Shown piece after piece: positions 4,601 to 55,322 of a stretch of DNA of 64,000 nucleotides (within the stretch, counting starts at the first letter, position 1; each line of letters starts with the position of its first letter). This DNA is from Meghimatium bilineatum (taxonomy: Eukaryota > Mollusca > Gastropoda > Stylommatophora > Philomycidae), in the NCBI GenBank assembly GCA_034231615.1, contig CM067310.1, positions 1,009,501-1,073,500 of the forward strand, in the 5' to 3' direction. The notes beneath the pieces were generated by a model. It was given only the letters and a program-made list of their open reading frames with translations. It was not told the origin of the DNA and did not search any database. The position numbers and the translations under genes are program-made.

Positions 4601-5367
4601 CTAGAGTGTTGTCTCTAAGTGTCCTTGAATGTCTGTACAACTGCTGCTAGCACTTTTTTGTCTGTGTATTTCTGCAGCACAAGTGACACGGTTTTCCGCT
4701 GGAATGTCCACAACTGGGCTGCTTTCACGAATCTCCTGGACACCGTTTGTAATGACAGGATTGTTTGTTATAACTGAAGGAGAACTGCTGATGTCAGGGG
4801 AAGACCGTATTTGTAGAGGTTCAATAACTGGAATTGTAGGAATAGATGGGCTCTCAACAGGGGTAAAACATCTCATAATTAGATCCGAACCGCTATCCCT
4901 GAGGGTGACAACTTGCAGGTTACCCGGCATCCATATAATGTTATGTTTATCTCTTGGTGATACTGGAGACATAGGAGGGCTAACAACAGATAGTTTTCTG
5001 ACCCTTCCACCATTGTTCTCTTTGTCATTATTGCTTGAGCCTCCTACAGTGAGATTTGTGGGAGGAACGCAGTCTGGATTTTGTTTTGGAATGTTTAAAA
5101 TCTTGTCAGTTAAACTCTGTTGTTCCAGGTTGTCAGGCGACATAGCTTTCGTTGGAGAAAGATCTGAAGAGTTGAAATTTTGCACACCTTTGTCTCTTGT
5201 TCTTTCAACATGATTATGCGGTGTTTGATTGGTGCGGTGCGCACCATCATGTGTTGTGTTCTGACTGCTGGTACTCCTGCTGTTTCTGTTGGTGGATGAG
5301 GACCTTCTAATGTAGTTATTCAAACTCTGGCCATCACTGGAAGCATTATCTTTCTTGAATGGTAAAT
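4601..5367 (-). CDS. Cngl: Exon 18: C-terminal tail and stop (aa 1062-1316)
   Basis: Acceptor GATTTTCAG; ends at TAG 4603-4601. Ser/Pro/Asn-rich disordered tail with repeated SP sites ([26 protein letters not shown]), plausible phosphorylation sites. No PDZ-type end recognised (terminal GHLETTL is weakly PDZ-ligand-like, T-T-L, class I). The 194-aa plus-strand ORF here is antisense. Confidence 0.87.
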
Positions 5368-8300: not shown

Positions 8301-11300
8301 AGAGCCAGATTTGTCAACACTCAACGAAGGATTCACCGATGTAGTGGACGGCTGACTGGACAGTCTAAAACTATGACTGCGTTGTGGTGTCAGGTGGTGG
8401 AGATTTGATGTAGAGGTACCCAGCCTATGACTATGTGATCTGACCAGAGATAGCAAATGTTAACTTTCATATAATAAACAAACATGATCAAATATGAGAA
8501 AATGGTCAACGATGACAATTTGATGATGGTCAAAAAATGATGATTTGATGATAGTCAACAATCATGATGTGATGGTCATCGATCATTTTTTATGATGATT
8601 AGCGATGATGATGGTCAACAATGATGATATGAGGATGATTAACAATGATGATTTAATGATAGTCTGTTTCACCTTTACAGACGAACAGAAAGAAGGACAT
8701 AGTAAAAGTTCGAATGGACCATGACGACTTCAAAATTTCACACATAATTCCATGCCCAGGCACTCACACATGATTCCATGCCCGGACACTCACACAAAAT
8801 TCCATGCCCGGACACTCACACATGATTCCATGCCCGGACACTCACACATGATTCCATGCCCGGACACTCACACATAATTCCATGCCCAGGCACTCACACA
8901 TGATTCCATGCCCGGACACTCACACATGATTCCATGCCCCGACACTCACACATAATTCCATGCCCGGACACTCACACATGATTCTATGCCCGGACACTCA
9001 CACATGATTCCATGCAGGTTTTATGTAGAAAGTGCCTTGTCTATATTCACTTAGTCTGGTCTTCCATCTGTTTGTTTGTTTCAAGAGAAAGACAACGACA
9101 ATACGGTTGAACATAAGCAGAACTGCATGAAAATGCCAGAAGATGGTTGAATAAAAAAAAAGTCATGCAGCAAACGGGATGTTAGCCAGGTTCCCTCAGA
9201 TGGCACCAACTCGCCTCGCAACTTGCGCCGACAAGATTTCCGTCTTAGATCACACAGCATCACAATGAAGATGCGATTTTAGTCAAAACTTCTTCAATTT
9301 CAGGAGCAACAATTGTGTAGCCTTTAGTTTCCTATTTATTTATTGTCCATGATTCGCTTCTACATAATAGAAGTGGATCTATGTATCATCATTATGATAG
9401 TTCTAAAAATAAGACAAACTATAATGAACCCCTTAACACAACAGACAACCAGACTTCACTTGAGATTCACATCATCTCACCTTGAATGAGGTCTTAGATA
9501 TGAGATTTAAATCATCTCACCTTGAATGAGGTCTTAGATATGAGATTTAAATCATCTCACCTTGAATGAGGTCTTAGATTTCTATGACTGCTTCTGATAC
9601 TTGTATTGAGATGCTTGACAAAACGTGAGTCTGGGTCCATAATTTGTATAACAGTTTGTATCAGCTTCGGTGTTTCTGGCGGTGTTTTGATAATTTTTTC
9701 TGCCTCGGCTTTCTTCTTTTTCTCCATCTTAGCATTTGCTTTCAACAGTTTCCTGAAGAAAAACAAAACAATTCAATCAATGGTAGACTGTAGAACAACT
9801 TTGTAAGACAAGTTTCTCTAATTTACATGGTACAAATGTTACAGAAGAATTGAAGTCAAGTTTCCCTCATTTACATGGTACAAATGTTACAGAAGAATTG
9901 AAGACAAGTTTCCCTCATGTACATGGTACAAATGTTACAGAAGAATTGAAGTCAAGTTTCCCTCATTTACATGGTACAAATGTTACAGAAGAATTGAAGT
10001 CAAGTTTCCCTCATTTACATGGTACAAATGTTACAGAAGAATTCAACGAATCTTCGATAGAGAGCATAATAAAAATATGTATGTTAGAAATAAAATAGAG
10101 GTGTGCTGGTTGTTCATCGCAAGTGATGATGACCATTTGTTACATTCACTTTTAAAAATTCAATTATAAATATGCCCATGCATAATAGTTCGTAGACATC
10201 TAAGACCTTAGCAAAAGCCATATCATAAGCCATATCATAAGCCATATCATAAGCCATATTCAAGCTGCAGATGTCAGTGGACAGTTTCCACATGGAATGA
10301 CCACTGTAGACGGATTTTGGTATATCCGTGACTTTCTAGCTACTCTCCGCTGTTGAGCTGCTGCATTTCTCCTCTTTTCACAAGATGATGCGCTCTTTTT
10401 GACTGTAGAGCGCCATGTAGATCTATTTTGTGCAAGTTCTTCCCATGTGTCTTGGTCTATTTCAAACGCTTTCAGTGAGTACTTTAACAAGTCCTTGTAG
10501 CGCTTCTTTTGGCCACATTGAGATCGTGTACCCTTCTCCAGCTCGCATTAGTGAAGCATCTGTATGTACCATATTTGGCAGGCGATGGTCTGGCATACGT
10601 ACCGCATGACCTGCCCAATGAATCTGCGTCTGCATCAGGATAGTGTCAATGCTGGGGATAACAGATCTGTCACGGACTGATGACGTACTTGATCAGTGGA
10701 ACACACGTTCTGAAATTGATTAGTGGAACACACGTTCTGAAATTGATTAGTGGAACACACGTTCTGAAATTGATCAGTTGAACCCCGGCTTGGAATTGAT
10801 CAGTGGATAAGTCCGATAAGTGAAAGCTGTGATAAGTCCGTGTTTAAAACGGTTATAGGTTCGTAAGCGGTTATAGGTTCGTGTTGAATGCGGTTATAGG
10901 TGATAGGCCCGTGTTTAAAGCAGTGAGAGGCCCGTGTTTAAAGCAGTTATAGGCCCGTGTTTAAATTGGTAATAGGCCAGTGTTTAAAGCAGTGATAAGC
11001 TCGTTTTTAATGTGGTTATAGGTCCGTGTTTAAAGTGGTGATAGGCTGGTGTTTAATGTGGTTATAGGCTGGTGTTTAATGTGGTTATAGGTCCGTGTTT
11101 AAAGTGGTTAGAGGCTGGTGTTTAAAGCAGTGATAAGTTCGTGTTTAATGTGGTTATAGGCCCGTGTTTAAAGTGATGAGAGGCTGGTGTTTAAAGCAGT
11201 GATAAGTTCGCGTTTAAAGCAGTGACAGGTCCATGTTTAAAGCAGTGACAGGTCCATGTTTAAAGCAGTGACAGGTCCATGTTTAAAGCAGTGACAGGTC

Positions 11301-14300: not shown

Positions 14301-17300
14301 TCTAGTTCAATCCCGCTTGCGGTTTATGTTTTGTTTCATGTTTCTACATGACATTAAGAAATTACTGAGTTTTTACATGACATTCAGTAATTACTGAGTT
14401 TCTACATGACATTAAGAAATTACTGAGTTTCGAGAACAAATGTCTTCGTAGGATAACTAACACACATTGGAGTGAATTCAAATCGAATGATAAAATCAGA
14501 GAAGAGACACATCAAAATTTCATCACAGATGTTATCAGAAAACGCTGTTGGTCCGACATCGCGCATGTCCTACGCACAGACATCACAAGAATACACCACC
14601 AATCTCTTGAATGGATACATACAGGCAAAAGAGCCAGGTGAAGACCAAAAGAAATACTCAGAAGAACAATACTTAAAGAAAGTCAAACAACTAATATTCA
14701 TACTATTCAAGAACTGTACAGAATAGCTTTGAACAGACAGAATTGGAGAGATCTGACCTCTGCCCTATGCGCTAACTTCAGCGCAAAAGGAATATGAATG
14801 AATGAATGAATGACATTATTGATTTAGCATTACCAACACAACAAGCGAGCCTCAGCTTCTTACAACACAATTAGCGAGCCTCAAATTCTTACAACACAAC
14901 TAGCACAACTAGCGAGCCTCACCATCTTACAACACAACTAGCGAGCCTCACCTTCTTACAACACAATTAGCGAGCCTCAAATTCTTACAACACAACTAGC
15001 AAGACTCACCTTCTTACAACACAACTAGCAAGACTCACCTTCTTACAACACAACTAGCGAGCCTCACCTTCTTACAAATAAAATCTCCAGGTAAATATAG
15101 AATTGGCCTGAGTTTCAAGACTAAGTCATACAACAGGTTTCTCTCACAGTCCTGAAACAGCTGGACCTTAGACAGCGTGTTGAAGTGCACATTTATGGCT
15201 AGATCTGTCTGTAGTTTCTTTGGAAGCGAGCACACTAATGACCTTTCATCTGTAACAAGCATATTCAAGTATTTGTACAGTTGAAAATGTTGAAATAAGA
15301 CGTAAGAGAATTGATTTCATTGCCTTTGGGGTACCCCATATGTACTGCGTCCCATTATGTGAGGCTGCACGCCGGGTTCCGAGAGGACGAGGTAAATCTC
15401 CATTGTCGGGCACCAACCCAACATACTAGATGTCTGAAGGCTAGGGCAAGACAGGGCAATATAAGGTGAAAACGGAACATACTAGATGTGTGAAGGCTAG
15501 GGCAAGACAGGGCAATATAAGGTGAAAACGAAACATACTAGATGTTTGAAGGCTAGGGCAAGACAGGGCAATATAAGGTGAAAACAGAACCATGTGTTTA
15601 TCAATATATGAGTATACAAGATCAGCGAACAGTTTAACAATTACACCACGATCCCCTTACACCAGGATCCCCTTACGCTAGGGGAGTTACTTAATTACAC
15701 CAGGATCCCCTTACGCTAGGGGAGTTACTTAATTACACCAGGATCCCCTTACGCTAGGGGAGTTACTTAATTACACCAGGATCCCCTTACGCTAGGGGAG
15801 TTACTTAATTACACCAGGATCCCCTTACGCTAGGGGAGTTACTTAATTACACCAGGATCCCCTTACGCTAGGGGAGTTACTTAATTACACCAGGATCCCC
15901 TTACGCTAGGGGAGTTACTTAATTACACCAGGATCCCCTTACGCTAGGGGAGTTACTTAATTACACCAGGATCCCCTTACGCTAGGGGAGTTACTTAATT
16001 ACACCAGGATCCCCTTACGCTAGGGGAGTTACTTAATTACACCAGGATCCCCTTACGCTAGGGGAGTTACTTAATTACACCACGATCCCCTTACGCTAGG
16101 GGAGTTACTTAATTACACCAGGATCCCCTTACGCTAGGGGAGTTACTTAATTACACCAGGATCCCCTTACGCTAGGGGAGTTACTTAATTACACCAGGAT
16201 CCCCTTACGCTAGGGGAGTTACTTAATTACACCAGGATCCCCTTACGCTAGGGGAGTTACTTAATTACACCAGGATCCCCTTACGCTAGGGGAGTTACTT
16301 AATTACACCAGGATCCCCTTACGCTAGGGGAGTTACTTAATTACACCAGGATCCCCTTACGCTAGGGGAGTTACTTAATTACACCAGGATCCCCTTACGC
16401 TAGGGGAGTTACTTAATTACACCAGGATCCCCTTACGCTAGGGGAGTTACTTAATTACACCACGATCCCCTTACACCACGATCCCCTTACGCTAGGGGAG
16501 TTACTTAATTACACCAGGATCTTCTTACGCTACGGGAGTTACTTAATTACACCAGGATCCCCTTACGCTAGGGATATCCTTAACTACTACATCAGATCCC
16601 CTTAGGCTACAAACTTTCTTAACTACATCAGGATCCCTTTACGCTAGGGAGATTATTAGCAACTACATCAGGATTCCTTTACGCTAGGGAGATTATTAGC
16701 AACTACATCAGGATCCCTTTACGCTAGGGAGATTATTAGCAACTACATCAGAATCCCCATAGGCTATGAAAATCCTTATCTACATCAGGATCCCGTTAGG
16801 CAATGGAGCTCCTTAACTAAATCAGAATCCCCTTACGCTAGGGGAGTTACTTAACAGTTACATCAGGATTCTTTTACGCTAGGGGAGTTACTTAACAGTT
16901 ACATCAGGATTCTTTTACGATAGGGGAGTTATTTAACACCTACATCATAATCACCGAATGAGAATAATTTGCAAAACAACAGTAATGCATTGCTATAAGC
17001 ATTAAAAAAAAGTACAACATAAAAATGTATATAAAAAACCCCAGATGTTATGAAAATTAGCAAAACGGCAACGCCGATGGATATAACAATAGATAACACC
17101 AAAGTGAAACTAGCTAAAGAATTTAAATATCTAGGCAGCATTTGTTTTTCCGAAAATAGAAGATTAGATAAATAAATAGAAAAAAAGTTGTCAGAAAGCA
17201 AACACAGTCACATACCAACTTTCATCTTGACGTCTTCATCAAAAGATCAAGATGGAAATTAAAAAAAAAACCAATAATATCTACAATTGTTATACCAACA

Positions 17301-20300
17301 CTCTGCAACCAATGTCAAACATGGTCACTGGGGTGCAAAGGGAACGCATTGCGCTAGGCGGACCCAGGGTTAGCAGATAACCAAGATCCCAAATGTACCT
17401 CCTCGCGGTGCACCCTGGAAACAGAAATACAGCAGCTCGTGCTGATTCTGGCCAAATCTTTTGGGGATCGTGTCCGAGAATGTGGAGGTAGCAGATGGAA
17501 AGAGATTTCACTGCACAAGAGACAGACAATATCTCCGACACCGCCAGCATCACCACATATAGCGACACTGTCGATATACAGTGAAGCTAGTCAGTCCAGT
17601 CTGAACATTGGAGGGGCGGCCAATGTAAAATGCACGTAAAGGTAGGTGCATGGCGAGAGACAAATAGATTTCACACTGAGTACAATGAAACAATGAAAAG
17701 GCAGAACAGCGCTAGAGGGCAGCGCGAACTGCAAATAGAAAGTGAAAAGTTCCTAGGAAAGGGGAACTACAAGCTCCGTCAGCTCGAGACGAGCTTCTAG
17801 TTACCTGTGCTCCGTACAGAGAGAGACCTAACCCATTCATTGGCATTCGGAAAAGCAAGAAGACCTAACCCAACTCTAATGTCGAGCCTTCCTAAACCGG
17901 AAATATGCTCGCGAAGAGAAAGGGTCCCGTACCCGATGGGCTTAGACAAGAAAGGGACAACGATGGCAGTCCTGGCCCAACTCTACTGTCAAGTTTTCCT
18001 ATACCGGAAATACACTTGCAAAGAGAAAAGGTTCAGTACCTGATGGGCTCAGGCGCTATTGGGACAAGGTCGCTCAGCCAGAGAACGCCTTGCTCTCAAA
18101 CGCGTGGTGTGAGACTCGAACGTGGACAAGAGGTACACGATATCGGTGAATGACACCTCGGCTAAGAAGGCGAAAGAGCCAGGTGTCCAACTCTTCTGTT
18201 GAGTTCTTCCCCTTAAGGAACCAGGCTCACGTATGAGAAACGGTTCAGTACCCGATGGGCACAGGCACAGTACGTCCAATTACACGAGGCAAGTTCCTAG
18301 ACAGTGGAACACCTCGTGCAAGACAGACGAAAGCAAAAATCGTCTGGGCGAAGAGTCACCACATGCACGCATGCCTGAGACAGATATGGAGGCTGTCACA
18401 GGCTAGGGTAGCCCACCCGAATTGTCAAGGCATGCCGAAATCGAATGTGCTAGGCCTACAAGGCGCATAACGGTGGTACAACGTAATCACGCTCCCGGCG
18501 AAAATCGCACGGATATCCGTGCTGGTTACAATGGAGTGAACGCAAAACAAACAAATCAAACAAACACGGTCCCCTAAATTAGATAACATAAGAAATGAAG
18601 AAATTAGGAGAAGAGTTGGTATATTACATGTATTTTACATATCGAAAGGCAGCAAGTAAAATGGTTCGGTCACTTTAAGAGAATTGAACCCAAACTAATT
18701 ACCAAAGAGAGCATCACAAATACACCACAAAGATTGCCATATTTTAAACATGTATATCTACATCACACTGACCCCCATGTATATCTACACCACACTGACC
18801 CCCATGTATATCTACACCACACTGACCCCCCATGTATATCTACACCACACTGACCCCCATACACATAGCCATATTGTAAATAAGAAATCAGATTTACTTA
18901 CCGATAGTTTTTTGCTGATTCCAGTTGTACAGAAACCATTCTCTGACTCGATCTTTCATTTCTTGTGGTAGATTGATAGATTGCATGTACCAGAGACAAG
19001 AGTCCATCTTTTTACGATAGTTGTCCTTGACCATTCCAGCAGCTTCAACTATGTCACGTATCTAGTTGAATAAAGATCAATTGTATTTGTAGATTTATGT
19101 TCTAGTTAGATAATGATAGGCTATATTTGTAGATCTTAGCTTTAGATAGATAATGATAGGCTATATTTGTAGATCTTAGCTTTAGATAGATAATTATAGG
19201 CTATATTTGTAGATCTTAGCTTTAGATAGATAATGATAGGCTATATTTGTAGATCTTAGCTTTAGATAGATAATGATAGGCTATATTTGTAGATCTTAGC
19301 TTTAGATAGATAATGATAGGCTATATTTGTAGATCTTAGCTTTAGATAGATAATGATAGGCTATATTTGTAGATCTTAGCTTTAGATAGATAATGATAGG
19401 CTATATTTGTAGATCTTAGCTTTAGATAGATAATGATAGGCTATATTTGTAGATCTTAGCTTTAGATAGATAATGATAGGCTATATTTGTAGATCTTAGC
19501 TTTAGATAGATAATGATAGGCTTTATTTGTAGATCCTGTAGTCGTAACCTAACCTTCGATAACAGTAACCATGTTGTTCCGACAGGCCGATGTTGTGCTT
19601 GAACTAGTTACAGGCACGGCGTGGATGGGAGGAACAACAAAGAAACCTGTCGCAAGGGCAAGTGTTGTGCCCTGATGTCGACGTATGTTTCGGCAACATT
19701 AGACTCGAAACACCATCGAGTCGAATGGCTGCTGGAACAGAGGGCGGAGCACTTGTGGGAATGCCTACATGCTGTGAGGCCAATTTCTAATCAAGAATCA
19801 AGGCTATATTTATATAATCTTTGTTCAAATTAGAAAGTGATTGGGATTGAACAATCTTAGATCCAGTTACATTTTATGTTACATTATGTTACATTATATT
19901 ACATTATTTTACATTATGTTACATTATATTACATTATGTTACATTATGCTACATTATATTTGAATTTTTCATATATTTCTAATTCAATAATAATAATAAT
20001 AATATTTGCCGAAGACAGGTATGTCGGACAACTGACGCAAAGAAAACGGCGACATAAGTTATTTTCATTTTATGGACTACATCGTACTGCAAGAGAGATC
20101 CAGTGGGAGTATGAGAATGTGTCCTGCTACAAGAGAGATCCAGTGGGAGTATGAGAATGTGTCCTGCTACAAGAGAGATCCAGTGGGAGTATGAGAATGT
20201 GTCCTGCTACAAGAGAGATCCAGTGGGAGTATGAGAATGTGTCCTGCTACAAGAGAGATCCAGTGGGAGTATGAGAATGTGTCCTGCTACAAGAGAGATC

Positions 20301-23300
20301 CAGTGGGAGTATGAGAATGTGTCCTGCTACAAGAGAGATCCAGTGGGAGTATGAGAATGTGTCCTGCTACAAGAGAGATCCAGTGGGAGTATGAGAATGT
20401 GTCCTGCTACAAGAGAGATCCAGTGGGAGTATGAGAATGTGTCCTGCTGCAAGAGAGATCCAGTGGGAGTATGAGAATGTGTCCTGCTACAAGAGAGATC
20501 CAGTGGGAGTATGAGAATGTGTCCTACTGCAAGAGAGATCCAGTGGGAGTATGAGAATGTGTCCTACTGCAAGAGAGATCCAGTGGGAGTATGAGAATGT
20601 GTCCTACTGCAAGAGAGATCCAGTGGGAGTATGAGAATGTGTCCTGCTACAAGAGAGATCCAGTGGGAGTATGAGAATGTGTCCTGCTACAAGAGAGATC
20701 CAGTGGGAGTATGAGAATGTGTCCTACTGCAAGAGAGATCCAGTGGGAGTATGAGAATGTGTCCTACTGCAAGAGAGATCCAGTGGGAGTATGAGAATGT
20801 GTCCTGCTACAAGAGAGATCCAGTGGGAGTATGAGAATGTGTCCTGCTACAAGAGAGATCCAGTGGGAGTATGAGAATGTGTCCTGCTACAAGAGAGATC
20901 CAGTGGGAGTATGAGAATGTGTCCTGCTACAAGAGAGATCCAGTGGGAGTATGAGAATGTGTCCTGCTACAAGAGAGATCCAGTGGGAGTATGAGCATGT
21001 GTCCTACTACAAGAGAGATCCAGTGGGAGTATGAGAATGTGTCCTGCTACAAGAGAGATCCAGTGGGAGTATGAGAATGTGTCCTGCTACAAGAGAGATC
21101 CAGTGGGAGTATGAGAATGTGTCCTGCTACAAGAGAGATCCAGTGGGAGTATGAGCATGTGTCCTGCTACAAGAGAGATCCAGTGGGAGTATGAGCATGT
21201 GTCCTGCTACAAGAGAGATCCAGTGGGAGTATGAGAATGTGTCCTGCTACAAGAGAGATCCAGTGGGAGTATGAGAATGTGTCCTGCTACAAGAGAGATC
21301 CAGTGGGAGTATGAGAATGTGTCCTGCTACAAGAGAGATCCAGTGGGAGTATGAGAATGTGTCCTGCTACAAGAGAGATCCAGTGGGAGTATGAGAATGT
21401 GTCCTGCTACAAGAGAGATCCAGTGGGAGTATGAGAATGTGTCCTGCTACAAGAGAGATCCAGTGGGAGTATGAGAATGTGTCCTGCTACAAGAGAGATC
21501 CAGTGGGAGTATGAGAATGTGTCCTGCTACAAGAGAGATCCAGTGGGAGTATGAGCATGTGTCCTACTACAAGAGAGATCCAGTGGGAGTATGAGAATGT
21601 GTCCTGCTACAAGAGAGATCCAGTGGGAGTATGAGAATGTGTCCTGCTACAAGAGAGATCCAGTGGGAGTATGAGAATGTGTCCTGCTACAAGAGAGATC
21701 CAGTGGGAGTATGAGAATGTGTCCTGCTACAAGAGAGATCCAGTGGGAGTATGAGAATGTGTCCTACTACAAGAGAGATCCAGTGGGAGTATGAGAATGT
21801 GTCCTGCTACAAGAGAGATCCAGTGGGAGTATGAGAATGTGTCCTACTACAAGAGAGATCCAGTGGGAGTATGAGAATGTGTCCTGCTACAAGAGAGATC
21901 CAGTGGGAGTATGAGAATGTGTCCTACTACAAGAGAGATCCAGTGGGAGTATGAGAATGTGTCCTGCTACAAGAGAGATCCAGTGGGAGTATGAGAATGT
22001 GTCCTACTACAAGAGAGATCCAGTGGGAGTATGAGAATGTGTCCTGCTACAAGAGAGATCCAGTGGGAGTATGAGAATGTGTCCTGCTACAAGAGAGATC
22101 CAGTGGGAGTATGAGAATGTGTCCTGCTACAAGAGAGATCCAGTGGGAGTATGAGCATGTGTCCTACTACAAGAGAGATCCAGTGGGAGTATGAGAATGT
22201 GTCCTGCTACAAGAGAGATCCAGTGGGAGTATGAGAATGTGTCCTGCTACAAGAGAGATCCAGTGGGAGTATGAGAATGTGTCCTGCTACAAGAGAGATC
22301 CAGTGGGAGTATGAGAATGTGTCCTGCTACAAGAGAGATCCAGTGGGAGTATGAGAATGTGTCCTACTACAAGAGAGATCCAGTGGGAGTATGAGAATGT
22401 GTCCTGCTACAAGAGAGATCCAGTGGGAGTATGAGAATGTGTCCTGCTACAAGAGAGATCCAGTGGGAGTATGAGAATGTGTCCTGCTACAAGAGAGATC
22501 CAGTGGGAGTATGAGCATGTGTCCTGCTACAAGAGAGATCCAGTGGGAGTATGAGCATGTGTCCTACTACAAGAGAGATCCAGTGGGAGTATGAGAATGT
22601 GTCCTGCTACAAGAGAGATCCAGTGGGAGTATGAGAATGTGTCCTGCTACAAGAGAGATCCAGTGGGAGTATGAGAATGTGTCCTGCTACAAGAGAGATC
22701 CAGTGGGAGTATGAGAATGTGTCCTGCTACAAGAGAGATCCAGTGGGAGTATGAGAATGTGTCCTGCTACAAGAGAGATCCAGTGGGAGTATGAGAATGT
22801 GTCCTGCTACAAGAGAGATCCAATGGGAGTATGAGAATGTGTCCTGCTACAAGAGAGATCCAGTGGGAGTATGAGAATGTGTCCTGCTACAAGAGAGATC
22901 CAGTGGGAGTATGAGAATGTGTCCTGCTACAAGAGAGATCCAGTGGGAGTATGAGCATGTGTCCTACTACAAGAGAGATCCAGTGGGAGTATGAGAATGT
23001 GTCCTGCTACAAGAGAGATCCAGTGGGAGTATGAGAATGTGTCCTGCTACAAGAGAGATCCAGTGGGAGTATGAGAATGTGTCCTGCTACAAGAGAGATC
23101 CAGTGGGAGTATGAGAATGTGTCCTGCTACAAGAGAGATCCAGTGGGAGTATGAGCATGTGTCCTACTACAAGAGAGATCCAGTGGGAGTATGAGAATGT
23201 GTCCTGCTACAAGAGAGATCCAGTGGGAGTATGAGAATGTGTCCTGCTACAAGAGAGATCCAGTGGGAGTATGAGAATGTGTCCTGCTACAAGAGAGATC

Positions 23301-26300
23301 CAGTGGGAGTATGAGAATGTGTCCTGCTACAAGAGAGATCCAGTGGGAGTATGAGAATGTGTCCTGCTACAAGAGAGATCCAGTGGGATTATGAGAATGT
23401 GTCCTGCTACAAGAGAGATCCAGTGGGAGTATGAGCATGTGTCCTACTACAAGAGAGATCCAGTGGGAGTATGAGAATGTGTCCTGCTACAAGAGAGATC
23501 CAGTGGGAGTATGAGAATGTGTCCTGCTACAAGAGAGATCCAGTGGGAGTATGAGAATGTGTCCTGCTACAAGAGAGATCCAGTGGGAGTATGAGCATGT
23601 GTCCTACTACAAGAGAGATCCAGTGGGAGTATGAGAATGTGTCCTGCTACAAGAGAGATCCAGTGGGAGTATGAGAATGTGTCCTGCTACAAGAGAGATC
23701 CAGTGGGAGTATGAGAATGTGTCCTGCTACAAGAGAGATCCAGTGGGAGTATGAGAATGTGTCCTGCTACAAGAGAGATCCAGTGGGAGTATGAACATGT
23801 GTCCTACTACAAGAGAGATCCAGTGGGAGTATGAGAATGTGTCCTGCTACAAGAGAGATCCAGTGGGAGTATGAGAATGTGTCCTGCTACAAGAGAGATC
23901 CAGTGGGAGTATGAGAATGTGTCCTGCTACAAGAGAGATCCAGTGGGAGTATGAGAATGTGTCCTGCTACAAGAGAGATCCAGTGGGAGTATGAGAATGT
24001 GTCCTACTACAAGAGAGATCCAGTGGGAGTATGAGAATGTGTCCTGCTACAAGAGAGATCCAGTGGGAGTATGAGAATGTGTCCTACTACAAGAGAGATC
24101 CAGTGGGAGTATGAGAATGTGTCCTGCTACAAGAGAGATCCAGTGGGAGTATGAGAATGTGTCCTGCTACAAGAGAGATCCAGTGGGAGTATGAGAATGT
24201 GTCCTGCTACAAGAGAGATCCAGTGGGAGTATGAGCATGTGTCCTACTACAAGAGAGATCCAGTGGGAGTATGAGAATGTGTCCTGCTACAAGAGAGATC
24301 CAGTGGGAGTATGAGAATGTGTCCTGCTACAAGAGAGATCCAGTGGGAGTATGAGAATGTGTCCTGCTACAAGAGAGATCCAGTGGGAGTATGAGAATGT
24401 GTCCTGCTACAAGAGAGATCCAGTGGGAGTATGAGAATGTGTCCTACTACAAGAGAGATCCAGTGGGAGTATGAGAATGTGTCCTGCTACAAGAGAGATC
24501 CAGTGGGAGTATGAGAATGTGTCCTACTACAAGAGAGATCCAGTGGGAGTATGAGAATGTGTCCTGCTACAAGAGAGATCCAGTGGGAGTATGAGAATGT
24601 GTCCTGCTACAAGAGAGATCCAGTGGGAGTATGAGAATGTGTCCTGCTACAAGAGAGATCCAGTGGGAGTATGAGAATGTGTCCTGCTACAAGAGAGATC
24701 CAGTGGGAGTATGAGAATGTGTCCTGCTACAAGAGAGATCCAGTGGGAGTATGAGAATGAACGCTGAAGAAGAAGAAATAATAATATCTTGTATTTGAAG
24801 GTCTTAGATTTTGTTAAATGATGATACACTGTATTTGAAAGTCTTGAATCTGATTAAAGATAAAATATGAGTTAAAATTGCCAGTGAAACAGAATAAAAA
24901 AATATTTACCTGACCAATCAGCAAAGCAAACACAAAAACACCAGACAGCCAATAGAACGTCATGAAGCTATACTCAAGCTTATTGGTCGGTGTAGGGTTA
25001 TTGCCAATGGATGTAGCTGTTTTTGTTGCTAGGTAGAAGCAACGGATGTATCTAAAACATTTATAGAACCAACATTTAGCACAGAAAGTCGTTTTCAAAG
25101 TAGACCACATGACTTATAAATAATATTAGCTATGGACACACATGTAATTATGTCATAAAATAGAGAGCTTCTATTCACTGTACCAAAGGTTTTCCTGTAT
25201 TCAATAATAGTATAATATAGAACTATCGAAGATTTGAACCGCGTCCGCTCAGATGGTACCAGAGCCGGATTTAGACTTGGTAAGGCCCAAGCTTTCCGGA
25301 CGTGCGTCATTAGGACAAATAATGCTGCAATATATTTAAGTATATATGACAATTGCTCAGGACAGTGGGGGGGGGGGGGGCTAAGCTATAACGTGTGTAG
25401 CTTATACGTAAATCATACACTAGATGGTACTCACTCAACTTGCAACTTAATTTAGCTCATTCCGTACGTAAACACGATATATCGTGGCAGAGAGTGATCT
25501 CACCTATCCGGACGTATCCACGATGTATCGGTCTTACAGATATGCCATCTAAATTTGCTTTGCTTCGATCGTAAATGAATTAGTATTAACTTATTTAGCT
25601 GTTTAAACTTTAGAAATCTGGCTAACGAAAAGAAACCCTCGTACTACTGTGTGATTAGACGCGTGATATATCTATTTCAAATTAAAATGTTTACACACTC
25701 TTTCATTGACGATCTTGTATATATCATTTTATCTCAGCAGTGGGTCTTCCTCTAACTCTTTTCCTTTCAGAAATTTCTTCAACACAAAATCTGCTTGTGT
25801 GATACGATTGTTCTTCATTCTTGACACATGACTAATATTTCCACACGAGCCAATATTTCCACACGAACCAATATTTCCACACGACCAATATTTCCACATG
25901 GCCCGTATTTCAACATGACCCATATTTCAATATGACCCAGATTTCCACACGACCCATAATTCTACATGACCCGAATTTCCACACAACCCATATTTTTCAC
26001 ATGTCCACTACTTCCACATTATCGATATTTCACACGACCCATATTTTCACATGACCCATATTTCAACACGACCCATAATTCCACACGACCCATATTTCCA
26101 CACGACCCATATTTCCACACGACCCATATATAAAGATATACTAGAGGATAGCTGAATAGATACTTACGCGATACCTTCTCCACTGTAAACCCAGTCATTT
26201 GTACCGAGGCCCTCATACACTGACACAGCGTAGTAGCCACAGGCCTCCACGTGAATTAGAAATAACATGTACGTCACCGTCTTGATAATCCTGTAGAGAA

Positions 26301-29300
26301 ATTAGAAAGGAAGTCAAAGTTGTGTCTTTAACCAACAAATGTAAGACAGGGTTTGCTACTACTCTACAAGTAAGAGAAACTTTCTCATGTAAGACAGGGT
26401 TTGCTACTACTCTACAAGTAAGAGAAACTTTCTCATGTAAGACAGGGTTTGCTTCTACTCTACAAGAGAAACTTTCTCATGTAAGACAGGGTTTGCTTCT
26501 ACTCTACAAGTAAGAGAAACTTTCTCATGTAAGACAGGGTTTGCTTCTACCGAACCAAGTAGACCAGAATGTACTTCTACAGAACGAACCAAGTAAGCCA
26601 GGATTTACTTGTACCGAACCAGGTAGGTCAGAGTTTACTTCTACACAACCCGGTAAGTCAGAGGTTATTTTAATTTAATTTTTTTTAATATTTAAATTTT
26701 TTAATAGACTAGCAAATACAAACATATATTTATACGCACCTGATATACAAACATAAATTCATACACACCTGATATACAAACATAAATTCATACACACCTG
26801 ATATACAAACATAAATTCATACGCACCTGATATACAAACATAGATTCATACACACCTGATATACAAACATAAATTCATACACACCTGATATACAAACATA
26901 AATTCATACGCACCTGATATACAAACATAGATTCATACACACCTGATATACAAACATAGATTCATACACACCTGATATACAAACATAGATTCATACACAC
27001 CTGATAGCATGTGCTGAAGATCTGGATGCCTGATCACATCTTTCGTAAAACTCCCAGTAAGTCTGAATCTGGTAATGAATGAGAAAACCATTTTCCAGAA
27101 AAATTTAAGTAATCATTGGTTATTCAACCGTAGAAAAATGATGCAACATTACAATATCAAATACGAGAAATAAGATCACGCACGTAGATTAAATACGAGA
27201 AATAAGATCACGCACGTAGATTAAATACGAGAAATAAGATCACGCACGTAGATTAAACTTTGTTAAGTTCTTGCTCTAGATAATATCATTTCAGTAACGT
27301 AACATTTGTAAATTGTAAAAAATTGTTGACAAAAAGTATTGAATGAACATGGATCATCTTAACTGGATTGTTGGATAACATGGATCAACTTAACTGGATT
27401 GTTGGATAACATGGATCAACTTAACTGGATTGTTGGATAACATGGATCAACTTAACTGGATTGTTGGATAACATGGATCAACCTTGCTTGCTTGCTTCTT
27501 TATTTGGCACATTTTTTCTAGAATGTAGTCTTCCTGGATCTTCTTAACTCCCAAACAATTCCGGGCGAGATGATCTGACGCAGCTAGAGGCATGTTTACA
27601 CCATATGAGATAAATCTTATCCATCGTCGTCTTGGGGGGGGGGGGATTAGCCGCTATGACGAGGAACCATACCCTCTATTATTACCTCTTCCATGTCTTT
27701 ATGTCTTATTATATGACCCCCCCCCCCCCCTTAAAAAAGAGTTCTTATCGTAATGTCGTCATTCCTCACCACCTAGGAGTTTGTCAAAAAAAGATAAAGG
27801 TGGAGTGTCCACTGGTCTGCATCCCTTGGTCATCCATGTCGACCACGTAACAGAAAAATAAAGGTAAGCAATTGAGACAAGACATGCATTGACAATGAAG
27901 ATTGTTTTCACGTTGTGTGACTTCAGCCTATCCCCCATCTTTCCGTAGTCGTCCTCAGCGACATATCTGGCAACATTCAAGTTATGTCGTAGGCCTAACA
28001 AATTCAAGTTATGTTGTAGGCTTAACAAACTCAAGTTCTGCTGTAACAGCGGTGTTGGCAGCGTACAATAAGGTATCCATAAAATTGATTTGAAATGAAC
28101 AAAATTCTGGACTCACCTTGAGCACACGGGGAAGACGCAGCCAAGGATTGATACCAACATCCTCAATGAAGTAGAAAAAATCAAGAGGCGTCAGCGACAG
28201 GATGTCAAACTGAAACATTGAATGAAAGACATGTTGATTAGTAAACTGTAATATCATTACAACCAATCAATGTTGAGTAATATCATTACAACCAATCAAT
28301 GTTGAGTAATATCATTACAACCAATCAATGTTGAGTAATATCATTACAACCAATCAATGTTGAGTAATATCATTACAACCAATCAATGTTGAGTAATATC
28401 AAATTTAACTAGGTCTAGTTGGACCTGGGTCGTGAATACGTCTTCAGTATGGCAGGTGGATGGGTTGCTAAAACACATTTAGGTTCAGTCGTCCGTGTTT
28501 TGTGTTTGCAATTCCCTCATTTTCTTTAGAAAATTGGTGATCTTTTGTCAAGATCTTTAAGGGGATTTTTTATGGGGGGGGGGGGGAAGAGAGGGGGGTT
28601 TCAACCAACCAACGATTTAATTCCAAATACGTAAAGATATGTTCTGATTTCCTAGGGGAGGTAGGTTTAAAACCCCAAATCCCCCTTTTTAAGGGGCTCG
28701 GGTTGGACAACGTGGTGAGTCACGATCCTCATTCCAAAATGATGCTCTAGCGAACATATATAGGCGGACAGAAGAAAGAGATTGAGCAGACAGAAAGTAT
28801 GGATTGATAGTATTGAGGACTAGATAGATTCAGTTTCCCTAGTGGTGACATAGTCTAGCATTGCTCTCGTGCGGACCCAGGGTTAGAAGATAACCAAGAT
28901 CCTAAAAGTACCTTCTCTTGGTGCACCCTGGAAACGTCTAGGAAAAATAATAAAATATATACACCAAACGGTAAGTAATACCAATGGTACAGATTGTCGC
29001 CAAAACAAGAAAAAAAAGATAATATTGTCGACAGAAATATCTCTGTATATTAATTAAACTACGCCAACATCGGGTGAATGTTCTCGCCACGTTATTATAT
29101 GAATCAAAAACATGAACATCATATTCCAGAAATGCGAGAAGACGCAATATATTTAACCTTCGATGTCTTCGCAAAATAACGAACATCAAGTGTTAGCACA
29201 AAAACACAAATACTGAGTTCATTCAGGGAGCAAAATTACAGTTTGAACATTGAAACAAATTACGCGGATGTTTCTCACATTTTAGGAGGTAAAATATTGT

Positions 29301-32300: not shown

Positions 32301-35300
32301 AAATTGAAATGACAGCAACAGTGCACATATCAAATTGAAATGACAGCAACAGTGCACATATCAAATTGAAATGACAGCAACAGTGCACATAACAAATTGA
32401 AATGACAGCAACAGTGTACATATAAAATTGAAATGACAGCAACAGTGTACATAACAAATTGAAATGACAGCAACAGTGCACATAACAAATTGAAATGACA
32501 GAAACAGTGCACATAACAAATTGAAATGACAGCAACAGTGCACATAACAAATTTAAATGACAGCAACAGTGCACATAACAAATTGAAATGACAGCAACAG
32601 TGCACATAACAAATTGAAATGACAGCAACAGTGCACATAACAAATTGAAATGACAGAAACAGTGCACATAACAAATTGAAATGACAGCAACAGTGCACAT
32701 AACAAATTGAAATGACAGCAACAGTGTACATATCAAATTGAAATGACAGAAACAGTGCACATAACAAATTGAAATGCTAACTGGCACAAGACTACAACCA
32801 GAACGCATACAACTCACCTCAATAATACCGTTGTTTGCAAAGCGCAGTCTTGTCTTGAAAATGAAGATATCCAATATGTAAATAAAATCACATAGGTAGT
32901 CTAATATCAGCCAATACTTGAGGTTATCAGAAGTCTGGTACGGGAAAACTCCTCGTAGGGGAATCACCACAGAGTTGTACAGGAATGCCAGGCTGACCAG
33001 GAATAACCATGATACATACATCTTACCTGGCAAATAGAAATGATAAAATATCAGGGTGTTTCAAATAAAATAACTTGATCATGCTTCAGAAATCAGAGTC
33101 AAGGAGTCCCGTGATAATACAATCCTGCGGACTCAATGGAAATTCTTCTTCTTATTGTCCTTCTAAGACGAGAATTGACTGTTTCTCGTGACTTCCATTG
33201 GTTATTTCGTATATATTTTATGTGAATGAACCAATATCAGAAACTAGTCACGAGGTCCTGAGAGGGAACATGATCAACACTTTCGAACCTTTTCTAACTG
33301 GATGACGTCACTCAAATCTATTAATTATGTCAGGTGGCCAAAGGAAACGCTACAAGGACTCGTTAAAGGACTCACTGAAAGTCTTTGAAATAGACCACGA
33401 TACACGGGAAGAACTTGCACAAAATAGATCTACATGGCGTTCTAAAATAAAAAAGAGCGCATCATCTTGTGAAAAGAAGAGAAATGCAGCAGCTCAACAG
33501 CGGAGAGCAGCTAGAAAGTCACGGATAGACCAAGATCCGTCTACAGTCGTAATTCCATGTCCAAATTGTCCAAGGACATTTACAGCTCGAATAGGGCTCA
33601 TTAGCCATCTACGAACTCATAATCAAGGACATAACTAAAATTGAATTCTCAAAAGTGGATGTAACAAATGGTCATCATCATCATGTGATGGACGAACAAC
33701 ACATACATCATCATCATGTGATGGACGAACAACACATACATCATCATCATGTGATGAACGATCAACATGTCAGATGGAATCATTGTGTTTCTCGTTGGTA
33801 TTGTGGTCATGCTCGCCTTAGTCGCGGCTCGCTCAAATCTTGCATATATGGGCACGAATATAAACGTAATCTTTCTGGTCAGAGATTATATCCGATACCC
33901 CATCCATGGAATCTCACCGAGGTTATGGTACTATACAGAGGTTATGGCACCCCATAGATGTTCTGACATCCCACAGAGGTTATGGCATCCTAGGGGTAGC
34001 AATACACGAGGTAGGCAGTCTTATAAATGGAATTAAACAAAGCAGGTTACAACTAAAAGATCAACATCGCAGTAACTATCATCTTTACCCTGCGACTTCT
34101 GTAAGGTTTTGCAGGATTCAATGACGAACGGTTCTCCAACTGTGCCACGTTTGCTCATTTAATATGTAGTAGTATTATGAATCATTGAATCTAACTTCTT
34201 CTTGGTGTTTCTCTACCTCTTGTTTACATGTTCATGTTGTATGCTCTTTGCTGTTGGCCAATATGGGTTTATTCTCATTAAGTGGCCGAACTATTTTTGT
34301 CTCTGTTTTTCTCTATATTTGAGCACAGACATTGTTCTAACATTTCTTGTAATCTCTTCATTCCTCAGATAATCTCTTCATGTAATCTCTTCTTGTAATC
34401 TCTTCATTTCTCAGATAATCTCTTCTTGTAATCTCTTCTTGTAATCTCTTCATTTCTCAGATAATCTCTTCTTGTAATCTCCTCATTCCTCAGATAATCT
34501 CTTCTTGTTCTGTTTGCTGCTTTTCTTAGACCTCTTATTTTACACGTATTAATATGTTTGTTCCTTAGTTATTGTCCATGTTTGACATTGATAACACAGT
34601 GCTGGTATGAAGATTGAATTTATGATTTGCCTTTTGGTTTCCATCGGGATAGATATGTGATTAAAAATTGGTGCCAATCAATCAATTGTCATGCTGAATG
34701 GCGTAGGCGATCATGTTTCTCCACGACTCTCTGTCTCTTGTGTTGTCAATAAGCTCGGTTGGTGAGCTTCTACCGTGCCACGATACAAGTCTATCTAGTA
34801 ACTTTTCTCTTTGTCGTCCCCTATCTCTTCTCCCCTTGATCTTTCCAGTGCAAAATACAATTATAAACAATTACAGTAAAATACAATTTTATGATTCTAT
34901 GTATTGCAATGTAACAATTTTTTACATATATTTTGCCTTTATATTTACTTACCAATATTTGTCTATATTGTTTAGTTACCAAATGTTGTGTATATATTGT
35001 TTACTTACGAATTTGTCTCTCTGTTTATTTACCAATATCTGTCTATATTGTTTACTTACATTTCGTCTCTCTGTTTACTTACCAATCGGTGTACAGTTTT
35101 ACTGCAGTCTGCCGTTTATTCAATTTTTGAATTTTCTTAAAGAAAAAAAACCATAATAACAAATAAAACGAATATTGCATTCACTTTATGAACAAGAAAA
35201 GAACTTAGAAAGAATATTGCATTCACTTTATGAACAAGAAAAGAACTTAGAAAGAATATTGCATTCACTTTATGAACAAGAAAAGAACTTAGAAAGAATA

Positions 35301-37842
35301 TTGCATTCACTTTATGAACAAGAAAAGAACTTAGAATATTGCATTCACTTTATGAACAAGACAAGAACTTAGAAAGAATATTGCATTCACTTTATGAACA
35401 AGAAAAGAACTCATAAGAAAAAATATTGCAAGAAAAAATATTACAAGAAATGGAGGACAATAAACGTTATATCTTACTATGCGGTTCCACGGTTTCTGGA
35501 AACTGAAGTCGCTTGATAAACTTGGGAGTTCTAAACTTGCAGTGCCACACACCAACAAAGTTGTCATGATTGTCGTCTGTGAGGGCATCGCTTCCTTGAG
35601 AACCAGCCGGCACGAAGGAACCGAAGCGGATAGTCCTTGGTGCCTTCGGTTCATCCTGTCCTGATGCAACTGAGAAAATGAAATAAATAGACATAGTAAG
35701 TATGTACGTCCGTGTGTTGCCGTGGCCCCGGAAGGGGAGCAAAGAATAGCAACACTTTTTACCTTCCACGCATGTCGTAAAAGGCGACTAAGGAGGTTAT
35801 GGAATGGAGCTGGCTGTCCCATCCCATATAGGGTCAGTGACCCAAAGCCATGCTGAAGTCGGATGTGTCAGGCCGAAAGGCGCAGATATCACAGCAATGC
35901 TGTAAACCATGATACACCGCATTCCGTTCTCCGGACTACATCCTGCTAGTCTGCAGGAGTTTGAGAACGAACGAAGAAGAAGAAGAAAAAGTAAGTATAT
36001 AGATCTATACCGGCAAAAACCACCGAAGACGGATGTGTTGGGACATTGGCAGATACAAAACACCGACACAACGCATTTACATTCTCTAGACTACATCCTG
36101 GAAATCTAATAGCTCCAATTGTCCTGCTATACGAGAGATCCGGGGGGAGTTTGAGAATGTTGTCCTGCTATACGAGGGTACTGGCGGGAGTTTGAGAATG
36201 TTGTCCTGCTATACGAGGGTACTGGCGGGAGTTTGAGAATGTTGTCCTGCTATACGAGGGTACAGGCGGGAGTTTGAGAATGTTGTCCTGCTATACGAGG
36301 GTACTGGCGGGAGTTTGAGAATGTTGTCCTGCTATACGAGGGTACAGGCGGGAGTTTGAGAATGTTGTCCTGCTATACGAGAGATCCGGGGGGAGTTTGA
36401 GAATGTTGTCCTGCTATACGAGGGTACTGGCGGGAGTTTGAGAATGAACGATGAAGAACGAGTAGAACAGACAAAGGAAGATGAATACAGTAACAATATA
36501 AATACGTGGAGATTTTCCACCCTCCATTTGATGTTCAGTCTTCGTTTTCATCCATCCATCCATAAATCCATCAACCTATCAAACAGTCAATACATCAACC
36601 CGTCAACATATCAATAAATCAACCCGTCATCACATCAGCCCGTCAACCTATCAACCAGTCAATACATCAACCCGTCATCACATCAACCCGTCAACCTATC
36701 AACCCGTCAACATATGAACCCATCAACCTTTCAAACCATCAACCCGTCAACCTATCAACCCATTAACTAATCAACACATCACCCCAACAACCCTTCAACC
36801 CGTCAATACATCAACCCATCAACCAATCAACCCGTCAACTCATAAACCCAACAACCTATTAACCTGTGAACCCGTCAAAACATCAACTCATCTATACATC
36901 AACCTGTCAACCCATCAACATATCAACCCATCAACCCATTAACTCGTCAACCGATCAACCCATCAACTAGTCAACCCATCAACTCGTCAGAGGCATACGG
37001 ATACAACATTGAATAAGATAACACACACCCTCTAGCAATTTATATCCTCAAACATGGCCGTCTGCAATAGATGACATCTGCACACAAATCACCTGGTCTT
37101 CATTCATTCCTTTTCTTGAGTATTGTCGTGTTTCCGTTGGTCACTATTTCTATACTTGTAATCGCACGCCAAAAAATAGTCAAGACGACTCCAAGTATAT
37201 AAATAGTGATCAACGTAAATCACAACAATAATCCAGAAAAGGAGCGAATGAATGCAATAATTTAAAAAAAAGTATATTGTCTTTCCCCAGGTGGTTTGTA
37301 ATCCACTCTTGCCGTTAAGCGTAGGGATGATTGGAGCTCGAGATTGCGTTCTAAAGCCAGATGTGTAACCTCGGCTGTGCTATGACCGTGTCTATTCAGG
37401 ATGTCCCTCACGTTTTCTATCCACCTTTCTCACGGTCTTCCTCTGGCTTTGTACCCTGATCTCATTTGGTTATATGCTTGTACGGGCAACTTTTCGTGAT
37501 GCATTCTCATAATGTGACCAAACCACTTAATCTGATGCCTTTCTATGTATTCTGTACAAGGTATTATACCTATTCTTTCCCTGATGTCGTCATTTCGTAA
37601 TTTATCGAGCCCGGCGACCCCTGCGGCTATCCTCAAGCATTCCATCTCACATGTTTAAAAAAAGATAAATAATGAAAAAAAATGAACGAATGAACTCATG
37701 ATTAATTTTGTGTAGAAGTCTTGTAATGACAGCATTTATTAGAAACAGACAATCCAGATTGTTTAGGGGGAATGTGATGAGAAAGGAAATACTTGAACAT
37801 TTAGTAACAACCGGAAAGATCAAAGGGAGAAGACACAGAGGA

Positions 37843-37873
<31 letters not shown>

Positions 37874-46800: not shown

Positions 46801-49800
46801 AGCTATTGATACTATAATCTGATAACTGAATGAAGCTATTGATACTATAATCTGATAACTGACTGAAGCTATTGATACTATAATCTGATAACTGACTGAA
46901 GCTATTGATACTATAATCTGATAACTGAATGAAGCTATTGATACTATAATCTGATAACTGACTGAAGCTATTGATACTATAATCTGATAACTGACTGAAG
47001 CTATTGATACTATAATCTGATAACTGACTGAGGCTATTGATACTATAATCTGATAACTGAATGAAGCTATTGATACTATAATCTGATAACTGACTGAAGC
47101 TATTGATACTATAATCTGATAACTGAATGAAGCTATTGATACTATAACCTGATAACTGAATGAAGCTATTGATACTATAATCTGATAACTGACTGAAGCT
47201 ATTGATACTATAATCTGATAACTGACTGAAGATCGATGAAGAATTAGAGGAATATATGTAATCTTCAACTATAATTTTTAAAAAAACAACAACTAAAGTA
47301 ACCACAATTGGATATCACATGTCAGCACCTACCTGGCACTACAGGGGGTCATATCGTATGTTTTTTGAGTGTTCAAATGAACTCCACTTTTAAAACTGAC
47401 ATTTACTTCACACATTTAAATACTTTGTGTCCGAACTGTATGGAAAATATTTACAGAAAATACATCACAGATTCTCGTGTAGATATTCTAGCGATTTATC
47501 CGGAAAAATTGCATCTACAATTATGTCCAGGGACACGCATTATCCTAGAATTGTGAGGAAAAATGCTATGCCACTTTGGAAATAAGAAGCCAAAATGATT
47601 TTTGAGCAACCAAAATGTTAAGTTATTGAACTGATAAAATGTCAGACTTATCCCGGGAGATATCAGTTCAAACACATCTTATTGAAAATAAAAAAGGAAG
47701 TGGAAGGGTTGAGGAGAATTAACTGTGGTCTCTGCAAAGAATTCTGAAACGAAATATTTTCACTGGGAAACTGACACTGTGTACATAAAGCATAAATCTT
47801 TCCGATCGTTACTTCTGGCCACATCCGCCGTGTGTGTCTCTCTCTCCGCCATTTCATTTGGAGAAACTAATGAGGAGGCATGGATTCGCCAAACGTTGGA
47901 AATCTGCTTAAATTTAACACTGGTGGACTGATAATCCTGCCAGACAACGTTACAAGCCAATTTAATTTCCAAATCACCAAAGAGAAACTAAATTAAGAAA
48001 AGACAGTTTTTAAAAACTGGTCAATGAGATTTCCAGATCAATTTCTCTGCAATGTTTGCGTGTCTCCTCAATAACTTTCTCTATCGCATCTTTCATTTTC
48101 ATTTGGTCATATGTCTTATGCTGTAACCGGCAACTTTTTTTAGATTGTGTTTTCACTGCAGGTTATCATCAGACTGTACCTGGCACGACTGTAGGTTGTT
48201 CGATTCCCTTATCAATAAATCCATTAGAGTGCTGAGTCCGACAGTTCCAGTTGGATGTTGATTTATCGGTCTCTTCTTATATATATATTATGTTTTTCTT
48301 GAGAGGCTTTTTCGACCTTTACACCAATCTCGCGTAGTCTTGAGGAGCTGTTTCAACCTTTATACCAATCTCGCGTAGTCTTGAGGAGCTGTTTCGACCT
48401 TTATACCAATCTCGCGTAGTCTTGACGGGCTGTTTCGACTTTATACCAATCTCGCTTAGTCTTGAGGAGCTGTTTCGACTTTAAACCAAAGCAAGCAGTA
48501 GTTTCGGCAGATTGTACGCAAATGTTTGGCGTAGAAATGGCATTAACCTACAGACTAAGCTGAAAGTTTACAGAGCAGTGGTACTTCCAGTGCTGTTATA
48601 CGCTAGTGAAACATGGACTGTGTATAGACGTCACGTGAGGAAACTCAATCACTTTCACACAACTTGTCTCGGAAACGGTATGAACATCAGATGGCAAGAC
48701 AAGATTCCAGATACCACTGTCCTTGATAGATCTGGTATCCCCAGCATTGACACTATCCTGATGCAGACACAGATTCATTGGACAGGTCATTTAGTACGTA
48801 TGCCAGACTATCGCCTGCCAAAGATACTTTTCTATTTGAGCTGGAAAAGGGTAAACGATCTCAAGGTGGTTAAAAGAAGCGCTACAAGGACTCGTTGAAG
48901 ACCTCACTCAAAGTGTTTAAATAGACCACGATAAATGGGAAGAACTTGAACAAAATAGATCTACATAACGTTCTACAGTCAAAAAAAATTATCCTGTGAA
49001 AAGAGGAGAAATGCAGCAGCTCAACAGCGGAGAGTAGCTAGAAAGTCACAGATAGACCAAGATCCGTCTACAGTGGTCATTCCATGTCCGAACTGTCCAA
49101 GAACATTTACAGCTAAAATAGGGTGTAACATAACATGTAACAGAATCTGTTATAAATATGTAACATACTGTAGTTATAAATATTTAACATGACCTAGTTA
49201 TAAATATTTAACATAATCTAGTTACAAAGATTTAACATAACCAAGTTATAAATATGTAACATAATATAGTTATAAATATTTAACATAATCTAGTTATAAA
49301 TATGTAGCATAACCAAGTTATAAATATGTAACATAACCAAGTTATAAATATGTAACATAACCAAGTTATAAATATGTAACTTACTGAGAGACTGTGTCCA
49401 GATCAGTTCTGGCCAGGGCGCCAAGACTGCGGCGGAGGTCAGTGGTACTCCACATGGAGGTTGTACTGAGCAGGCCAGGACTCCTAACAGAACGTCCGGA
49501 GATGTCATCTATGCTGAGTGAGGCCAAAGGACGAGGGCGAATTAGCAAAGAAGCCGCTGATGCTAAAGCTGCTTCACGTAAAGTGGACGACGTATAACTT
49601 GAACGTCTTTGTCCTGTGGGTAAGATTGAAGATGATTTATAGAATTATCTAATGTTAATGAAATCTCGACTACATGTGTTGTGTCTACGAAATGTCAATT
49701 CAAAGAAGAAGAATACATATGTACACATGACTGAAGGAAGGCATACTATGGTTCTGTCCATCTATCCACCCAATCATATCTATGTTTCTTTAGCACCGAA

Positions 49801-55322: not shown

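Follow-up and report, generated by a model that had tools for sequence, protein, structure and literature searches.

Minisatellite arrays across splice junctions of a CNGB1-like gene in Meghimatium bilineatum are very probably of the mirage type

Introduction

Do the tandem arrays that fill the introns of one gene arise at its 5' splice sites, or do some of them merely happen to span a splice junction? The question is raised by a CNGB1-like cyclic-nucleotide-gated channel gene on the minus strand of a 64,000-nucleotide (nt) stretch of the Meghimatium bilineatum genome (the window, C13:1009501-1073500; the genome comprises 1.61 Gb in 32 contigs), where it occupies positions 4601..55322. An initial annotation of this DNA described arrays at exons 8, 12 and 15 that contain the exon end and the 5' splice site (donor) and a fourth beginning inside the donor of exon 2, found no array copying a 3' splice site (acceptor), and ascribed this one-sidedness to a donor-linked process. 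Here we compare the channel gene with dynein and kinesin exons of the same genome, in which arrays cross both kinds of junction. Very probably, the junction arrays are minisatellites of the 'mirage' type that arise by local duplication rather than by a donor-only process.

Mirages were described in amphioxus as minisatellite-like duplications of intron/exon boundaries; the cited sections allow for 5' and 3' boundaries alike, and report AG/GT signals in many, not all, of the copies (PMC3087553). Likewise, an excerpt on lancelet PGBD5 places tandem repeats over both 5' and 3' splice sites (PMC3902484).

Results

Arrays at the splice junctions of the channel gene

The gene was identified, and 16 of its exons were placed, with phmmer, Pfam and tblastn. 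Its product matches the CNGB1 chain 7rh9_B (E 6.7e-133, phmmer) and contains the Pfam domains Ion_trans and cNMP_binding. Tandem Repeats Finder (TRF) yielded 78 merged arrays of period at least 10 in the window; 67 of these, amounting to 20,487 bases, lie inside the gene, and arrays make up 42% of its intronic sequence.

Three arrays, all read on the minus strand and examined by TRF, by setting their units in register and by donor scores, span an exon-intron junction (marked by a slash below). Exon 8 (27001..27068, placed by its reading frame and the CNGB1 alignment; donor CAG/GTGTGT) runs into 10 copies of a 29-nt unit (26716..27006); the first unit takes 6 exonic nt, and each copy holds the exon end and the donor. 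Specifically, all of these copies score 10.0-10.5 as donors. At exon 12 (15068..15249, CNGB1 alignment; C-terminal end ...GDFICKK, donor AAG/GTGAGG), an array that also has a period of 29 (14834..15077) includes 10 exonic nt and the donor within its first unit; its donor copies score 11.6-12.2, with one at 9.6, versus 11.6 for the true donor. The array at exon 15 (9561..9752, donor AAG/GTGAGA) consists of three copies with a period of 40 (9461..9579), has 19 exonic nt plus the donor within the first unit, and scores 10.6 in all copies. Counting the true donor, 10, 5 and 3 strong donor copies are present at exons 8, 12 and 15 respectively. The exon 12 array has signal-less copies as well, so that many, but not all, units keep the splice signal. 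The three junction arrays are thus confirmed as real, in agreement with the initial annotation.

Exon 8 shows a further feature: within 27035-27001, a second ATCAGG stands exactly 29 nt, i.e. one period, upstream of the ATCAGG at the donor. The surrounding stretch otherwise has little likeness to the array unit.

The fourth array begins where it was described but copies no junction. The array of period 24 after exon 2 (49124..49380, minus strand, units in register) starts at intron base +5, inside the donor, yet it overlaps GTAAGT by the last GT only, and neither the exon nor the donor recurs in its units. Exon 2 itself (49385..49613, minus strand, donor TCA/GTAAGT) is a candidate called from an open frame and splice signals alone.

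At the other end of the introns, none of the 15 placed acceptors is crossed by an array, which upholds the statement that no 3' splice site is copied in this gene. The nearest array ends are located 18 nt (exon 17), 22 nt (exon 11) and 38 nt (exon 7) upstream of the acceptor. The arrays concerned at exons 11 and 7, both found by TRF on the minus strand, have periods of 40 (19084..19535) and 29 (28248..28401); for exon 7 the distance refers to the chosen acceptor, and an alternative AG is present 2 nt past the array end.

Junction-spanning arrays at dynein and kinesin exons

Family searches elsewhere in the same genome returned 105 dynein (DHC_N2) and 123 kinesin exon matches. Two dynein matches with internal stops (on C1) and four weak kinesin matches (C16, C19) were left out, and 103 dynein plus 119 kinesin matches (222) were taken forward. 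Sequence with enough margin was available for 113 of the 222 exons, or 111 after removal of the near-copies L064 (of L063) and L068 (of L067). All 113 exons entered the coverage by distance and the crossing counts that demand 5 nt on each side; the remaining statistics use the 111. The sample is non-random, being drawn from dense 10-kb regions and the best-scoring loci, and a shuffled list supplied only its last 32 exons. Exon ends were defined from splice-signal scores near the hidden Markov model matches rather than from transcripts. Ten candidate crossings were read by eye, and boundaries were corrected by hand for the donors of L032 and L102 and the acceptor of L081; the last of these candidates was rejected, its acceptor having been misplaced.

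Importantly, arrays cross junctions at both ends of introns in these genes. Among the 111 exons, four donors are crossed (L032, L061, L102 and the L072 exon at C12:3064528), with L078 as a marginal fifth (2.0 copies, 81% matches), and four acceptors are crossed as well (L041, L095, L104 and a different L072 exon, at C12:3067552). The rates are 3.6-4.5% for donors (4 or 5/111) and 3.6% for acceptors (4/111), although in so small a sample the 95% interval for 4/111 extends from 1 to 9%. When an array had to reach 5 nt or more into both exon and intron, 3 donor versus 4 acceptor crossings remained. Two of the acceptor arrays repeat the splice signal: four L104 units, including the authentic one, have a polypyrimidine tract plus AG, and the L072 acceptor array has CTCTAG/GACAT in three units.

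Two of the donor arrays deserve description. In L061 (sense-strand positions 1592-1972, kinesin exon DSKLTRLLQ), the 47-nt unit contains an AG, 28 exonic bases and a donor, which gives the array the appearance of a row of approximately eight potential mini-exons. In L102 (positions 521-1006, dynein exon), about eight copies of a 60-nt unit hold 49 exonic bases plus the donor.

The acceptor-crossing arrays of the sample rule out donor-only copying. The initial annotation, which held that arrays copy donors only, had itself named equal frequency at acceptors and donors as the outcome that would speak against it, and the sample gave 4 (or 5) donors versus 4 acceptors. The channel gene alone, with 3 donors versus 0 acceptors, does not depart significantly from symmetry (P = 0.25); gene and sample together give 7 or 8 crossed donors and 4 crossed acceptors (binomial P 0.55 or 0.39).

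Placement of arrays relative to junctions

In the sample, arrays cover 4.4% of the first 10 intronic nt and 3.5% of the last 10 nt. At 100-380 nt from the junction, coverage is 21-25% downstream of donors and 13-14% upstream of acceptors; both junctions therefore lie below the intronic background. The 20 nt that follow donors hold 7 array edges versus 5.4 expected (P 0.25; crossing arrays are counted at the junction). Lack of an excess over random intronic placement was the other outcome that the annotation had regarded as contrary to its proposal, and this is what the sampled donor junctions show. An excess was seen in the channel gene only: an array occupies the first 5 intronic nt in 3 of 13 introns, where random intronic placement would give 0.33 (P 0.0024), and none occupies the last 5 nt. 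These 13 introns are those with both ends placed, the introns after exons 1 and 2 being excluded, and the test was post hoc, on a single gene picked for its odd look.

Some of our results weigh against undirected duplication as the full account. Arrays cross 3 of 15 donors in the channel gene, whereas the sample has 4 or 5 crossed among 111 (Fisher P 0.036 or 0.053), and because of this difference in rate the channel gene is somewhat unusual. The crossings are too few to discount a twofold donor bias. Array starts 0-150 nt after sampled donors number 36, versus 22.7 expected with flanks of up to 1400 nt (0 of 1500 shuffles) and 27.5 with flanks of up to 700 nt (P 0.0027). Moreover, the final 20 nt upstream of acceptors contain 6 array edges versus 2.5 expected (P 0.032), so that an edge excess, if it exists at either junction, is at the acceptor and not at the donor. 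Plain chance explains neither the donor-side starts nor the acceptor-side edges. The acceptor-side edges (111 exons) belong mostly to acceptor-crossing arrays, a small excess that the donor-only idea had not foreseen.

Array starts crowd just downstream of the sampled donors. Between 20 and 150 nt after donors there are 29 starts, or 2.0 per kb, versus approximately 0.6 per kb at 150-1000 nt, a contrast that becomes smaller when the starts are set against the placement nulls. On the acceptor side, the 0-150 nt zone contains 21 starts versus 17.0 (P 0.12) or 20.8 (P 0.55) expected, and no cut-off tested there gave a significant excess; these 0-150 nt counts include crossing arrays, 5 at donors and 4 at acceptors. 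Under the longer flank, the donor excess reached significance also at 100, 200 and 300 nt and fell short of it at 60 nt (P 0.075). Under the shorter one, 150 and 200 nt gave a significant excess, whereas 60, 100 and 300 nt did not. Coverage at 60-380 nt is likewise higher on the donor side (21% versus 13%; sign-flip P 0.026), and no difference was seen at 0-60 nt (P 0.47). Since the distance bins and the 150-nt cut-off were picked during exploration, these P values are optimistic.

Selection, mutation and the donor-side excess

An asymmetry of this kind could reflect selection rather than mutation, which we regard as possible though doubtful. About 6 nt suffice at an intron's 5' end, whereas its 3' end requires a branch point and a polypyrimidine tract; in addition, mobile-element insertions near exons may be purged, so that older native sequence and its arrays stay beside exons. 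Consistent with the latter, dispersed repeats in the sample fall from approximately 27% deep in introns to approximately 1-6% within 60 nt of exons. However, when array placement was confined to sequence outside dispersed repeats, the 20-150 nt zone still held 29 starts versus 18.0 expected on the donor side (P 0.002) and 15 versus 17.0 on the acceptor side; dilution by mobile elements was accordingly rejected as a full explanation of the donor-side excess, which persists in non-dispersed sequence. Nor does the acceptor side show a deficit against the random nulls, and L104 and L072 demonstrate that acceptor-crossing arrays with repeated polypyrimidine tract and AG do occur.

A process linked to transcription or splicing (R-loops, U1-associated nicking or slippage at the transcribed exon edge) that makes arrays at or just after donors appears unlikely. 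In its favour are the array starts within 150 nt of donors, above both placement nulls where acceptors lack a significant excess, the survival of the 20-150 nt excess outside dispersed repeats, and the first 200 intronic nt of the channel gene, 63% of which is array versus 28% expected (0 of 5000 shuffles). At their 3' ends the same introns are enriched as well, however (last 200 nt, 45% versus 28%, P 0.014), sampled acceptors are crossed as often as donors, and the excess of starts hangs on an exploratory cut-off. An R-loop signature was rejected: the guanine-cytosine (GC) skew of donor-proximal arrays averages 0.067 (P 0.44 versus zero) and does not differ from that of deep arrays.

Donor-like motifs, expected on the sense strand if arrays retained donors, gave no significant strand excess. 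In 140 sample arrays off placed exons, 21 sense versus 13 antisense motifs reach score 5 (Wilcoxon P 0.27); at score 7 there are 7 versus 2, a sense lean that is not significant. The 61 channel gene arrays off placed exons contain 6 sense versus 4 antisense motifs (P 0.07). Relic donors in the 32 arrays starting 0-150 nt after donors were rejected on counts of 6 sense versus 2 antisense at score 5 (Wilcoxon P 0.40); score 7 gave 3 versus 0. Collectively, the donor-linked process put forward in the initial annotation is supported only in part: donor-only copying is not borne out, the GC skew that an R-loop model would predict is not significant, and a possible bias in the array starts of the first 150 nt is left.

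That the repeated donors are functional decoys regulating channel splicing is most improbable: the strong copies at exons 8, 12 and 15 mostly score at least as high as the true donor, and the C. elegans minisatellite CeRep25B is, in the cited excerpt, over-represented near alternative splicing regions (PMC4039745), but similar arrays occur at both ends of unrelated dynein and kinesin exons, and the amphioxus data, in the sections cited, suggest that mirages leave regular splicing undisturbed (PMC3087553).

Other arrays and exons of the channel gene

The largest array of the gene (20090..24759, minus strand, TRF) repeats a 40-nt unit 116.8 times. This unit is part of a dispersed repeat and is matched outside arrays in 16 of the examined sequences; among these sequences, some non-array homologue was found for 10 of the 67 gene arrays. 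By eye, 20090-24759, 36119-36446 and 54440-54540 are apparently related pieces of one dispersed repeat; two of the three are now arrays, one with 117 copies, and non-array matches are present in 16 and 9 examined sequences.

Exons 3 and 4, as numbered in the initial annotation, were not found when the 16 exons were placed. Between exons 6 and 7, the alignment to the CNGB1 chain lacks approximately 17 residues, and a pattern search of window positions 28209-32818 did not find a tiny exon there. Because of these absent residues, the channel gene probably has at least one further exon, and the 17 introns counted in the initial annotation are a provisional figure.

Discussion

Our data make it very likely that the junction arrays of the channel gene are mirage-type minisatellites born of local duplication. 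The genome is dense in short tandem arrays, and a local duplication of some tens of nt would sometimes span a splice junction; the duplicated segment could then expand into an array through slippage or unequal exchange. Where this happens at a donor, the first unit would leave the exon intact and the additional copies would fall into the intron, while at an acceptor it would be the last unit that leaves the exon intact. With an intact junction copy beside the exon at either end, donor and acceptor arrays could therefore both persist. On this simplest account, tandem duplication would occur anywhere selection allows, donor and acceptor junctions included; crossings of both kinds were observed in the dynein and kinesin exons. 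We infer both the mechanism, duplication plus slippage, and that the authentic junction is the spliced one. Array birth needs no splice site, since the largest array grew from a dispersed repeat. The three donor arrays of the channel gene would then largely represent a chance run in introns that are 42% array. A donor-side bias may exist, though not as donor-only copying.

The comparison with known systems points the same way. In the amphioxus mirages (globins BflGb6 and BflGb9, Adh3, TnC, PGBD5), the published excerpts describe units that span the exon-intron boundary, and the same was found at exons 8, 12 and 15 and in the sampled crossings. Duplication of both boundaries was observed across the sample, with donors only in the channel gene, and the 10, 5 and 3 strong donor copies correspond to a signal kept in many, not all, copies. 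Unit size differs from that given in the excerpts for the amphioxus globins (approximately 150-160 bp); the Adh3 units (10-72 bp) are a closer match. At 1.61 Gb, the genome examined here is also larger than that of amphioxus.

Human genes offer further parallels. The 31-bp variable number tandem repeat (VNTR) of CBS, c.1444_1467+7(16_21), occurs in 16-21 copies according to the cited extracts (PMC2630376; PMC1395315). By these coordinates, its unit comprises the last 24 exonic and the first 7 intronic bases, the same layout as at exons 8, 12 and 15, although the VNTR is a single polymorphic human locus and the arrays described here are known from one assembly. CBS also harbours 844ins68, in the cited extract a duplicated intron 7/exon 8 junction (PMC2630376). 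As described there, this is one duplication, unlike the arrays reported here. It is said, in a 2002 reference, to involve the 3' splice site. Some minisatellites in human segmental duplications, with units of about 30 bp, lie at exon-intron boundaries, as far as the cited part of that study describes them (PMC2812944). By the same account, those repeats differ from one paralog to another and can give rise to novel introns; the likeness to the arrays here is in unit and position. Because amphioxus mirages and the human CBS repeat share the boundary-spanning layout, the junction arrays belong to a known class. The arrays of the channel gene thus appear to be a further instance of a repeat type already known to copy junctions, with one modest asymmetry remaining.

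What this asymmetry means can be stated tentatively. It is conceivable, though we would not favour it, that the first ~150 intronic nt are a birth zone for minisatellites in this lineage, the 3' ends of introns being without significant excess there. If so, a process tied to the intron 5' end during transcription or splicing would be implied. A non-exhaustive literature search found no earlier description of an excess of array starts at the 5' ends of introns.

Our findings probably extend mirage-type arrays to a further animal lineage. Arrays built of AG...GT blocks, such as L061, would be ready material for the intron-gain model proposed, in the sections cited, for amphioxus globins (PMC3087553). 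If the donor-side excess of array starts holds true genome-wide, a mutational bias at intron 5' ends would become directly testable.
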